DNA of 64,000 bases, from positions 186,001 to 250,000 of the forward strand of contig JABSRT010000002.1 in the NCBI GenBank assembly GCA_013214945.1. The letters are read 5' to 3'. Of this stretch, positions 13,212 through 55,803 are shown one piece after another; the stretch's first letter is position 1, and each line of letters opens with the position of its first letter. Below the pieces are notes generated by a model, which worked only from the letters and a program-made list of their open reading frames with translations, was not told the origin of the DNA and did not search any database. Origin of the DNA: Gammaproteobacteria bacterium. Its GTDB lineage: Bacteria > Pseudomonadota > Gammaproteobacteria > Enterobacterales > Psychrobiaceae. Made by a program: the position numbers and the translations under genes.

Positions 13212-13245
13212 AAAAAAGCCGCTTAAGTAATTAAGCGGCTTTTTT
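13212..13245. terminator. Bidirectional terminator between rplI and the CBS gene
   Basis: Arms AAAAAGCCGCTTAA and TTAAGCGGCTTTTT form a 14-bp stem around GTAA. The T-run serves rplI on the plus strand, and the A-run gives a T-run on the minus strand for the converging four-gene operon. Confidence 0.92.
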
Positions 13246-13271: not shown

Positions 13272-13676
13272 TTAACAGTCATTGGTTAGTTGATGTAAGA
13301 CGAGCTCTTGATAACCAATCACCCCTAAGATCTCTTCTTTTTCTACCACAGGGGTATAATGCAGGTCGAAATTTTCGAATAATCGCGCGCAATAGCGAAT
13401 ATCCATTTGCGGCGGTACGCTGATCAGGGGTTTAGCCATTACTTCATAAATATTGACCCGTTCGGGCGCACGATCCTTGGCAATCACTTGCTTGGCAATA
13501 TCTTGCAGAAGCAAGATGCCATAGGCGTCATGTGGGTCGCGTTTATTAACAATAATAACATCGCACTTTTCACGTTTCATTACCTCAATGGCTTCACGAA
13601 TTGTCTGCATACCGTCCATTTTAATGAAACGATTGGTCATGACTTCAGATGCTTTAATCAGAGTGTTTGTACTCAC
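13272..13676 (-). CDS. CBS-pair domain protein of the DUF1538 operon
   Basis: A soluble 134-residue protein made of two CBS motifs and little else: the first around residues 10-60 (ASEVMTNRFIKMDGMQTIREA), the second around 78-130 (EVMAKPLISVPPQMDIRYCA, then YTPVVEKEEILGVIGYQELV). CBS pairs usually bind adenine nucleotides or S-adenosyl compounds and report energy state to a partner protein. The GTG start overlaps the stop of the P-II-like gene by four bases (GTGA), with GGAG upstream. Last gene of the four-gene operon. Ligand and partner are unknown; a gating or regulatory role on the DUF1538 proteins is my inference. Confidence 0.85.
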   Translation of the reverse strand: MSTNTLIKASEVMTNRFIKMDGMQTIREAIEVMKREKCDVIIVNKRDPHDAYGILLLQDIAKQVIAKDRAPERVNIYEVMAKPLISVPPQMDIRYCARLFENFDLHYTPVVEKEEILGVIGYQELVLHQLTNDC

Positions 13677-14023
13677 AATTCTTTCTCCACAGTTTCGCTT
13701 AGTCGATTAATTTGATGACTAACGCCGACGGCATCTTCGACATCAATTTGGATTGCTATGCCAGATCCTGGTTTTTTATCAAATTGACCAACTTGATAAA
13801 TTTTTTCCAAAATATGGCGACTTAAATGTTCTTCGACAATAAATAAGATGACATCACGAGGCTCATCTAAGGTTAAACCAAAGAAGGTTTTAGGTTGTTG
13901 AATACCTTCTCCTCTGGCGTTATTAATAATAGTAGCACCGGTTGCTCCTGCCTCTCGTGCCGCATCCATAATGAGATCCGTGGTGTTGTCATCAACGAAG
14001 GCGATGATTAATTTAAAATGCAT
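13673..14023 (-). CDS. Divergent P-II-like signalling protein
   Basis: The 116-residue protein has a ferredoxin-like P-II fold pattern: strand HFKLIIAFVDD, helix TDLIMDAAREAGATGATIIN, then RDVILFIVEEHLSRHILEKI, and a C-terminal strand GSGIAIQIDVEDAVGV. The segment matching the T-loop (about 35-55, NARGEGIQQPKTFFGLTLD) has no tyrosine where GlnB/GlnK carry the uridylylated Tyr51, so it is not a canonical nitrogen P-II. GGAGAG precedes the ATG. It stands between the two DUF1538 genes and the CBS gene. P-II-like proteins commonly bind and regulate membrane transporters, which is the likely role here by inference. Confidence 0.8.
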   Translation of the reverse strand: MHFKLIIAFVDDNTTDLIMDAAREAGATGATIINNARGEGIQQPKTFFGLTLDEPRDVILFIVEEHLSRHILEKIYQVGQFDKKPGSGIAIQIDVEDAVGVSHQINRLSETVEKEL

Positions 14024-14059
14024 ATTTCTCTCCGATCATGCGTTTTTTACTTAGTAACA

Positions 14060-14860
14060 TTATGTTTTATGTGAATGTTTGGTTAGCTTTTCCGATATCT
14101 GCGCATAAGCCATTACCGACATAATAGGGAACAAGCTAGCAAAAGCGATTAAACCAAAACCGTCAATTATTGGGTTTCGTCCGGGTACTGTCTCGGCTAA
14201 ACCCAACCCAAGTGCGGCGACTAATGGTACTGTAACGGTTGAAGTTGTAACGCCACCTGAATCATAAGCCAGTGGAATAATTAATTTTGGTGCAAATAAG
14301 GTTTGAATAACAACGACGACATAACCCGCCATGATGTACCACTGAATAGGATCTCCGACCACAATCCGATAACAGCCGAGCGAGATACCAACGGCAACAC
14401 CAAATGCGACAGAAAGCCGTAAGCCCCACACGCCGACGGTTCCACCTGATACTTCATTGGCTTTAATTGCAACGGCAATAAGAGACGGCTCAGCAATGGT
14501 GGTTGCAAAACCAATTAAAAAAGCAAAGATATAAACCCAGCTATAATCGGTCCAAGCAAGTTGCTGTACCACGCCACTAAGCTGCGCTGCATTATCAACA
14601 CCGGCAATAAAGGCTGGATCAGTCAGTTGCTTGGCCATTAACCGCCCTAAAGGAAACAGCGCTAATTCAAGCCCAATTAAGAATAATGATAAGCCGATTA
14701 AGACCCAAACAAAGCCCCGTAATACCTTACCAAGATTGGGTAATGGCTTGCGGATTACGGCAAATTGAAAGCCAAATAAAATCGCCGCTATCGGCAGGAC
14801 ATCGGTGAAGGTGGCTAAGATTGTTTGCACAATCTGAATTAGGATGTCGCTCAAGGTCAT
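14060..14860 (-). CDS. DUF1538 integral membrane protein B
   Basis: A 266-residue membrane protein with six to seven hydrophobic segments. It carries the DUF1538 patterns also found in its upstream neighbour: [20 protein letters not shown] near 38-57, [12 protein letters not shown] at 120-131, [20 protein letters not shown] at 198-217, and [16 protein letters not shown] at 227-242. Its ATG overlaps the TGA of the neighbour (ATGA). No function is established for DUF1538; the conserved polar motifs inside hydrophobic stretches suggest transport, and the two paralogues may form a heteromer. It lacks any fused soluble domain, so sensing would come from the P-II-like and CBS proteins. Confidence 0.85.
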
Positions 14861-15594
14861 AGTTTAATCATCCCGTAAGCCATCACGAAAATCATAGGGG
14901 TTAGGGAGGCTAAGGCGATTAGCCCAAAGCCGTCGATCATCGGATTTCTGCCTTTAATTGAGGAAGCTAAACCCACCCCCAAAGCAGTGACTAGCGGCAC
15001 GGTGATGGTTGAGGTTGTAACGCCGCCAGAGTCATAAGCAATCCCGATAATCTCTGGTGGTGCGAACATTGTCATAATAACGACGAGTAAGTAGCCGATA
15101 ATAATAAACCATTGCAGCGGCCAGCCTTTGATTATTCTAAATACCCCCAGCGCGATAGCAATACCAACACTTAACGCAACACTTAGTCTAAGTCCTTGGG
15201 CATAATCGTTCATCGCGGCTTGGCTGGCTCCAATTAAACCACCATCAGCCGCTACTTTTGCCGCTTCAGCGGCAACGGCTATTAAAGCTGGCTCGGCGAC
15301 TGTCGTGCCAAAACCGAGGCAAAAAGCAAAGATCAATAACCACTTCACGCTGCCTTTACGGGCAAAGGCGTGGGCCATTGATTCACCAATCGGAAATAAG
15401 CCTTGTTCCAGGCCGTGAATAAAGAAAGTAAGACCTAGTAAAACAAATAAGACCCCAAGCAGTAACTGACCGACATTAGGCAAGGGCTGGCCAATCACTA
15501 CCAGCTGAAAGAAAACAATCACCGCAATGATCGGTGCCAAATCTCTGGCACTGCTGATCATAAAATAAAACAGTTTTTTGAAGGTCTTTTGCAA
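14857..15594 (-). CDS. DUF1538 integral membrane protein A
   Basis: First gene of the four-gene minus-strand operon. The 245-residue protein has about seven hydrophobic segments and the DUF1538 signatures [20 protein letters not shown] (35-54), [20 protein letters not shown] (97-116), [10 protein letters not shown] (187-196) and [16 protein letters not shown] (215-230), in the same order as in its paralogue. The likely start is a TTG at 15594 because AAGGGA lies eight bases upstream; an ATG at 15561 has no ribosome site but would still include all conserved parts. Function unknown; a regulated transporter is my inference. Confidence 0.83.
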
Positions 15595-15824: not shown

Positions 15825-15849
15825 AAAAAGCCGCGTTAAACGCGGCTTC
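15822..15849 (-). terminator. Intrinsic terminator after prs
   Basis: On the minus strand AAGCCGCG and CGCGGCTT form an eight-bp stem around TTTAA, followed by a run of T. It lies 28 bases past the prs stop. On the plus strand there is no T-run. Confidence 0.9.
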
Positions 15850-55464: not shown

Positions 55465-55803
55465 ATGAAAATGATTCATGCGATTATTAAGCCGTTTAAA
55501 CTTGATAGTGTCCGCGAAGCTGTATCTGAAGTCGGAGTTGACGGTTTGACCGTTTCTGAAATACGCGGCTTTGGTCGGCAAAAAGGCCACACGGAACTTT
55601 ATCGTGGTGCTGAGTATCAAGTAGATTTTTTACCAAAAATTAAAATTGAAATTGCCTGTAAGGCCGAAGATGTTGATCGCATTATTGATGCGATCACTAG
55701 CGCGGCACACACCGGAAAAATTGGTGATGGCAAAATATTTGTATTTGATCTTGAGCGGGCGCTGCGTATTCGCACCGGCGAAACTGATTTTGAAGCGCTG
55801 TAA
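55465..55803 (+). CDS. glnK: Nitrogen regulatory protein P-II (GlnK)
   Basis: Trimeric P-II protein that blocks AmtB when nitrogen is plentiful. From the ATG at 55465 (AGGGGAA upstream) there are 112 residues, the family length; the frame is open from 55408, but the extra residues precede the promoter. The T-loop carries Tyr51 in HTELYRGAEYQVDFLPK, the uridylylation site, and the C-terminal signature GKIFVFDLERALRIRTGETD is present. The pairing with amtB 22 bases downstream makes GlnK more apt than GlnB. Confidence 0.96.
   Translation: MKMIHAIIKPFKLDSVREAVSEVGVDGLTVSEIRGFGRQKGHTELYRGAEYQVDFLPKIKIEIACKAEDVDRIIDAITSAAHTGKIGDGKIFVFDLERALRIRTGETDFEAL

Follow-up and report, generated by a model that had tools for sequence, protein, structure and literature searches.

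Results

An operon at 13272–15594 on the minus strand of the window (the whole 64,000 nt stretch of contig JABSRT010000002.1 analysed here) was found to carry, in 5' to 3' order, genes for two DUF1538 membrane paralogues (A and B), a PII-like protein and a stand-alone CBS pair. Judged from sequence, the operon is likely to encode an UmpAB-type Na+(Li+,K+)/H+ antiporter with a dedicated PII-like regulator, the CBS protein serving as a modular second input. The arrangement is far beyond chance and its order recurs in relatives; among DUF1538 pairs with at least 1.5 kb of downstream sequence, 239/244 were followed by a PII-like gene. The same four-gene set had been named in the original prediction, and when the operon proteins were scored with Pfam and NCBIfam models all four open reading frames (ORFs) were confirmed by Pfam:

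14857..15594, minus strand: umpA-like gene (DUF1538 paralogue A), 245 aa, TTG start; PF07556 236.5 bits, NCBIfam UmpA model 369.9 bits (cut-off 490)
14060..14860, minus strand: umpB-like gene (DUF1538 paralogue B), 266 aa; PF07556 221.5 bits, NCBIfam UmpB model 344.7 bits (cut-off 500)
13673..14023, minus strand: gene for the putative PII-like regulator, 116 aa; PF00543 35.5 bits (cut-off 25)
13272..13676, minus strand: stand-alone CBS-pair gene, 134 aa, GTG start; PF00571 56.8 bits (cut-off 24)

Linkage of DUF1538 pairs with PII-like and CBS genes

A search of named genomes returned 192 loci encoding an UmpB relative, and the best 80 of these were inspected. All 80 had an UmpA gene, and in 77 this was joined by PII-like and CBS genes with order and strand preserved; the three without them (L047, L069, L076) were near contig ends, with about 0.7 kb left in the case of L069. 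Because a best-80 set is biased, whole-genome surveys were added. DUF1538 matches were obtained in 126 of 398 genomes of the phylum and, with the UmpB model, in 126 of 369 genomes of the class. Neighbourhoods were scanned with profiles built iteratively from the four window proteins, distance being the gap that separates the DUF1538 domain end from the PII domain start. Of 307 non-redundant clusters, 22 without two full DUF1538 domains were dropped, leaving 285 complete pairs, and 6 more with under 700 bp downstream were set aside, leaving 279 that were counted (L208 and L269–L273 were excluded from the census; L406–L415 joined the collection afterwards and are uncounted). The sample was mostly Pseudomonadota, with clostridial plasmids as its sole members from outside that phylum.

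In 272 of the 279 pairs, a PII-like gene lay no more than 700 bp downstream. Among the 244 with at least 1.5 kb downstream, a CBS gene was found in 202, and a CBS gene never occurred in the counted pairs without a PII-like gene (202/202). When the loci were confined to those from the whole-genome search, the values were 162/167 for PII-like and 130/167 for CBS. The exceptions to the 700 bp rule were of several kinds: in L144 and L350 the PII-like gene was upstream of the pair, in L276 both PII-like and CBS genes were about 1.5 kb downstream, and in L069, L153, L160 and L169 no PII-like gene was seen, L069 and L169 having only 720 and 1231 bp left. L153 and L160, both from family f59, had more than 5 kb downstream in which no PII or CBS was found, and may represent natural losses. 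L144 was unusual in having tandem DUF1538 sets, one fused and one not, on either side of a pair of PII-like genes and one CBS gene, such that the PII of the second DUF1538 pair is upstream.

The reciprocal survey, which assumes the same 369 class genomes as the UmpB survey, identified the PII-like subfamily (at E 1e-15) in 114 genomes, 112 of which also had a DUF1538 match. In the remaining two (G531, G742), the PII-like gene abuts a contig end. Fourteen genomes had DUF1538 and no PII-like match at E 1e-15; in 13 of these a more divergent PII domain was found behind DUF1538, and the other (G709) contained a DUF1538 fragment only. Two cases with interrupted frames were also seen: a DUF1538-PII-CBS set in G674 that is broken into several frames (L408:3396-5766), that genome having another copy, and a PII-like gene in G690 that is interrupted by a stop, with no DUF1538 within the 6.9 kb examined.

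The supposition that DUF1538 genes are usually accompanied by both sensor genes therefore held for the PII-like gene (239/244), and partly failed for CBS (202/244, and none in seven plasmid records). The linked P-II-like partner was borne out by the tight downstream linkage and also by one fusion, described below. No report of a DUF1538-PII/CBS linkage was found in the open literature, judged by titles and abstract starts. The DUF1538 antiporter family itself is already known, if little studied; its near-obligate PII-like partner is apparently unreported.

Fusions and alternative architectures

The DUF1538 pair was fused in 35 of the 244 operons. Doubled PII domains, whether encoded by a single frame or by two neighbouring frames, were found in 18 of the 35 fused operons and in none of the 209 unfused ones, and none of these 18 had a CBS gene. 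The sensor sets were distributed as PII plus CBS in 202 operons, PII plus PII in 18, a single PII in 19, and none within the limits in 5; hence, two sensor units per operon are the usual state. Clostridial plasmids (Paraclostridium, Peptoclostridium, Vescimonas) combined a fused DUF1538 with a protein of about 222 aa annotated as P-II. Each of these proteins had two PII domains according to the family profile; Pfam recognized two in Peptoclostridium and one in the Paraclostridium protein tested. Plasmids of Methylocystis and Chelativorans had the order DUF1538, DUF1538, PII, without CBS. In all, CBS was absent from the seven alphaproteobacterial and clostridial plasmid records examined, out of nine with a match. 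One ORF of 650 codons (L165:4494-6443) encoded DUF1538-DUF1538-PII in a single protein (P-II 31.6 bits, cut-off 25); this was the sole such fusion in the census, a single case from a draft genome of about 220 contigs that is 92% complete and 5% contaminated.

The DUF1538 pair

PF07556 aligned with the two paralogues over model positions 1–211 and 1–210 of 211, both passing the cut-off of 22.6, and each subunit scored best with its own NCBIfam Ump model (NF041627/NF041628). The UmpB equivalog cut-off was reached by 0/369 class genomes, the best score being 469.9 bits in G733, a genome that carries both PII-like and CBS genes; nor were there matches over the cut-off in the orders of G646 (0/24) and G576 (0/48). 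Since their own scores are below the equivalog cut-offs, the window genes are termed DUF1538 homologues here, rather than UmpAB. From sequence, the pair probably works like UmpAB.

UmpAB of Halomonas zhaodongensis is a DUF1538 pair that a 2017 study describes as a heterodimer with Na+(Li+,K+)/H+ antiport activity (PMC5484666), and NCBIfam names UmpA and UmpB as 'Na,Li,K/H(+) antiporter' subunits. In stating that no function was known for DUF1538, the original prediction was out of date. Its two-subunit membrane transporter agrees with the homologues, since UmpA and UmpB are reported to co-immunoprecipitate as a heterodimer that performs Na+/Li+/K+:H+ antiport (PMC5484666). According to the same report, co-expressed umpAB rescued the salt- and alkali-sensitive E. 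coli KNabc, and antiport in vesicles was pH-dependent, ranging from pH 6.5 to 9.5 with an optimum at 9.0. The Halomonas clone had four described ORFs, none of them PII or CBS, and umpAB alone sufficed; the terms PII, P-II and CBS have no mention in the main text (PMC5484666). Elsewhere, a machine-learning study counted DUF1538 among key genes for growth pH (PMC13255231), and UmpAB homologues are described in saltwater cable bacteria (PMC10030654); the available text of the former does not mention PII or P-II, nor that of the latter PII or CBS. A study of formate tolerance in Shewanella (PMC12093963) deals, in its available text, with SbtA-like and DUF2721 proteins, rather than DUF1538, and was not used.

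Two motifs had been claimed as common to both paralogues, and both AEP[SA]LIAVA and a ten-residue motif were present in the UmpA-like and the UmpB-like proteins. Conservation was measured across 270 pairs:

15271..15297, minus strand: AEPALIAVA motif of UmpA-like, residues 100–108; E101 99%, P102 99%
15007..15036, minus strand: ten-residue shared motif of UmpA-like, residues 187–196; D188 99%, G190 98%
14468..14494, minus strand: AEPSLIAVA motif of UmpB-like, residues 123–131; E124 100%, P125 100% of second paralogues
14237..14266, minus strand: ten-residue shared motif of UmpB-like, residues 199–208; D200 100%, G203 98%, T206 97%

Thus, the membrane acids E101/E124 and D188/D200 were retained in 99–100% of pairs; R153/R165 and D221/D233 were kept at 90% or more. 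The AlphaFold2 model of the UmpB-like protein (m4a27b995d66c, 266 residues; pLDDT 93.0, pTM 0.85) placed helices at 103–122 and 125–137, with a break at 123–124 in AEPSLIAVA, and at 195–204 and 210–224, with a second break at the ten-residue motif. Conserved membrane acids at or near helix breaks would suit proton/cation exchange. Foldseek found no match to this model in the PDB with E <= 0.001 (best 1.4), and a sequence profile found nothing better than E 0.47 among solved structures. VIA structural matches were regarded as common background; these included MsbA (Z 5.8, 63 residues) and 4u9n, an MgtE-like membrane protein (Z 5.6, 101 residues, rmsd 3.7). Kinship with MgtE is not claimed from a match at background level, and nor is a new fold. 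Since neither sequence nor Foldseek gave a PDB relative, an antiporter fold not seen before could emerge from a solved structure, and the model possibly represents one.

The PII-like protein

The AlphaFold2 model of the PII-like protein (pLDDT 81.8) had the ferredoxin-like PII fold, with Z 12.8 to 3lf0 over 94 residues (rmsd 2.9), and the sequence profile barely reached solved PIIs (best E 0.034). In the P-II search of its own genome, three canonical PIIs scored 109–116 bits and the PII-like protein 34.9. One canonical PII gene is located in the same window, at 55465–55782 on the plus strand (110.8 bits), 40 kb from the operon. The predicted loss of the T-loop tyrosine was verified, the Y51 of the three canonical PIIs having no counterpart in the PII-like protein. 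The canonical T-loop is replaced by another sequence:

13850..13912, minus strand: T-loop of PII-like, residues 38–58; KTFFGL...PRD in the window, KTFFGL...QRD in the family majority

Among 219 PII-like proteins of unfused operons, this loop was well conserved (K45 81%, T46 95%, F47 98%, F48 74%, G49 100%, L50 95%, Q at position 55 85%, R56 91%, D57 94%). Residues 41–50 of the model had a mean pLDDT of 60, and such low confidence might be anticipated where a loop becomes ordered upon binding a partner. Cyclic di-AMP (c-di-AMP) is unlikely as a ligand because the source genome has no diadenylate cyclase (DAC) domain (PF02457), which a control search found in 11/14 genomes. It was rejected for the source organism on these grounds, and not for the Clostridia.

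A paralogous PII-like gene was found in G676 (L406:5033-7415), 58 bp upstream of a CPA2 antiporter gene, the gap being taken from start codons. It scored 100.7 bits with the family profile and 34.8 with Pfam P-II. The antiporter has 658 aa, comprises Na_H_Exchanger (PF00999, 205.6 bits) plus TrkA_N, and is closest to KefC, scoring under the KefC cut-off. In this one case, then, the gene for a relative of the window regulator is linked with that of an unrelated cation/proton antiporter.

The CBS protein

PF00571 matched the CBS protein in two stretches, corresponding to two CBS repeats, and the nearest solved sequence was CBS-CP12 (5nmu, E 3.9e-21). Among 237 relatives, G53 was conserved in 100% and D59 in 91%. 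The second-repeat motif of the family majority is G-x-x-S-x-x-D (S 65%, D 58%), and the window reads G-x-x-G-x-x-E. Motifs of this kind are associated with adenine-nucleotide binding.

Gene layout

The remaining features of the operon and its borders were as follows:

14857..14860, minus strand: ATGA stop/start overlap of the umpA-like and umpB-like genes, from sequence
13673..13676, minus strand: GTGA stop/start overlap of the PII-like and CBS genes, from sequence
13212..13245, strand unassigned (recorded as minus): stem-loop resembling a terminator, in the gap from the operon to a convergent rplI-like gene, by pattern scan only
15827..15849, minus strand: terminator-like stem-loop after the upstream prs-like gene, separating it from the operon, by pattern scan only

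The sequence AAGGGA is six bases 5' of the umpA-like TTG start. The flanking genes are named rplI-like and prs-like after their sequences. Overlapping or abutting starts had been claimed for three of the four genes. The ATGA and GTGA overlaps are real; however, this wording was slightly too strong because the third junction is a gap, the PII-like gene starting 36 bases past the umpB-like stop.

Discussion

A mechanism for the operon can be proposed from two precedents, GlnK-AmtB and SbtB-SbtA, in both of which a trimeric PII protein binds a transporter that is itself a trimer and blocks it with the T-loop (PMC8352866, PMC10710835). The PII-like trimer would dock from the cytoplasmic side onto three UmpA-UmpB heterodimers assembled as a trimer, where its conserved T-loop would insert and lock the transporter, as GlnK does on AmtB and SbtB on SbtA. 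The timing of release would depend on a small ligand, which probably binds otherwise than ATP or 2-oxoglutarate does in canonical PII, and on a further signal from the CBS protein. The PII-like effect is more likely to be inhibitory than activating because UmpAB is active in E. coli without these partners. What we infer is the interface between PII and UmpAB, the ligand, and whether regulation is negative or positive; the operon of transporter and PII-like gene is itself conserved, in 272/279 pairs and the one fusion (L165). More tentatively, and with rather less than even confidence, a new class of PII-controlled membrane protein is suggested: a monovalent cation/proton antiporter of no known fold, in which a trimer of UmpA-UmpB heterodimers is plugged by a dedicated PII-like trimer that makes no use of the canonical ATP/2-oxoglutarate site, with a second slot filled by CBS or by a second PII domain, and a relative recruited to a CPA2 antiporter, such that PII proteins may target cation/proton exchange in general. 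PII targets named in a review include AmtB, Amt1, NrtABCD, UrtABCDE and SbtA, none of these being a monovalent cation/proton antiporter (PMC10710835).

Several observations weigh against a PII-gated antiporter of this kind. Coupling analysis of PII and UmpAB (218 paired sequences, Meff 111, 568 columns) gave no convincing interface, and several of the scores between proteins mapped to residues in PII strands. UmpAB is reported as a heterodimer (PMC5484666), whereas the proposal needs a trimer of heterodimers. The window pair scored under the UmpA and UmpB equivalog cut-offs (369.9 of 490 and 344.7 of 500), and 7 of 279 pairs had no PII-like gene within 700 bp downstream. In G784 (L407:2316-5488), a PII-like gene is upstream of cydA (identified by Pfam) and a cydB-like frame, all on the same strand, with no DUF1538 nearby. 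Therefore, the PII-like subfamily may have other targets, as its gene adjoins cytochrome bd genes here. Lastly, when aligned with the three canonical PIIs of its genome, the window protein lacked equivalents of Y51, K58, K90, R101 and R103; all five canonical GlnB/GlnK positions are changed or deleted, which places the protein outside canonical GlnB/GlnK. In canonical PII these are the T-loop tyrosine (Y51), the 2-oxoglutarate lysine (K58) and the ATP ligands (K90 in the B-loop, R101 and R103). The 'nucleotide-gated' label of the original prediction is unproven because the PII-like family, as seen in the 219 proteins of unfused operons, has lost the ATP and 2-oxoglutarate residues of canonical PII along with the T-loop tyrosine.

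The alternative that survives best, though unlikely, is that the PII-like protein (and CBS) activates, protects or assembles the antiporter rather than inhibiting it. Tight linkage (239/244) would fit an assembly or stability partner equally well, and the published assays of UmpAB activity relied on plasmids in a foreign host (PMC5484666). Yet UmpAB was active in that host, E. coli, on its own (PMC5484666), and the T-loop, which is well conserved in the PII-like family, serves as the plug in GlnK-AmtB and SbtB-SbtA (PMC8352866, PMC10710835), both of which favour inhibition.

Somewhat less probable still is that the DUF1538 pair in the window's clade moves another substrate, such as bicarbonate, ammonium or a divalent ion, the antiport of UmpAB being a side activity. 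Among the PII-controlled transporters that the review names, the substrates are ammonium, nitrate/nitrite, urea and bicarbonate (PMC10710835), no sequence relative of DUF1538 with a solved structure was found, and the window pair is under the UmpA/UmpB cut-offs. Against these stand the membrane acids and motif residues, kept at about 90–100% over 270 pairs, and the PII-like paralogue that adjoins a CPA2 cation antiporter in G676; marine genera also account for many of the relatives. Monovalent cation/proton antiport is the better reading of the pair.

The weakest alternative, that linkage reflects conserved operon structure only while PII-like and CBS proteins act elsewhere and are co-expressed under the same stress, could draw on the PII-like genes that adjoin cytochrome bd genes and a CPA2 antiporter without DUF1538 beside them, and on the absence of interface evidence from coupling analysis (Meff 111), but is improbable given one fused DUF1538-DUF1538-PII protein, the confinement of doubled PII to fused DUF1538 (18/35 versus 0/209), and a PII linkage that persists in plasmids of Alphaproteobacteria and Clostridia.

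DUF1538 was present in approximately one third of surveyed genomes. If gating by PII-like proteins is true, the PII logic of nitrogen and bicarbonate uptake would extend to Na+/K+ and pH homeostasis. The sensor genes adjoining the antiporter pair suggest dedicated switches for a salt-and-pH pump, and the sole characterized pair found, UmpAB, was studied without a PII-like partner. The divergent PII-like protein has a good internal control in the canonical PII gene of the same window.

Comparison with known systems

The window pair resembles UmpAB of H. zhaodongensis in having paired, overlapping DUF1538 genes of similar length, and differs in being followed by PII-like and CBS genes, neither of which is mentioned in the main text of the UmpAB paper. 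SbtA-SbtB shares with the window a transporter and a PII-like gene in one operon, and a divergent PII-like protein with a conserved T-loop. However, SbtA is one trimeric protein and a different transporter, for which no sequence or Foldseek match to DUF1538 was found. SbtA-SbtB is not known to have a CBS partner. SbtB is reported to bind cAMP and AMP (PMC8352866), and nucleotide control is described as common in two-CBS units (PMC10710835). A two-CBS unit is common to CBS-CP12 (5nmu), the CBS domains of MgtE/CorB and the window protein, whereas the latter stands alone and would act in trans, and its gene always occurred with a PII-like gene in counted pairs. The window also shares the gene adjacency of AmtB-GlnK, where the PII gene is beside the transporter gene and the T-loop plug provides the model; unlike GlnK, the window PII-like protein is without the T-loop tyrosine and canonical effector residues, and its host has three canonical PIIs besides.

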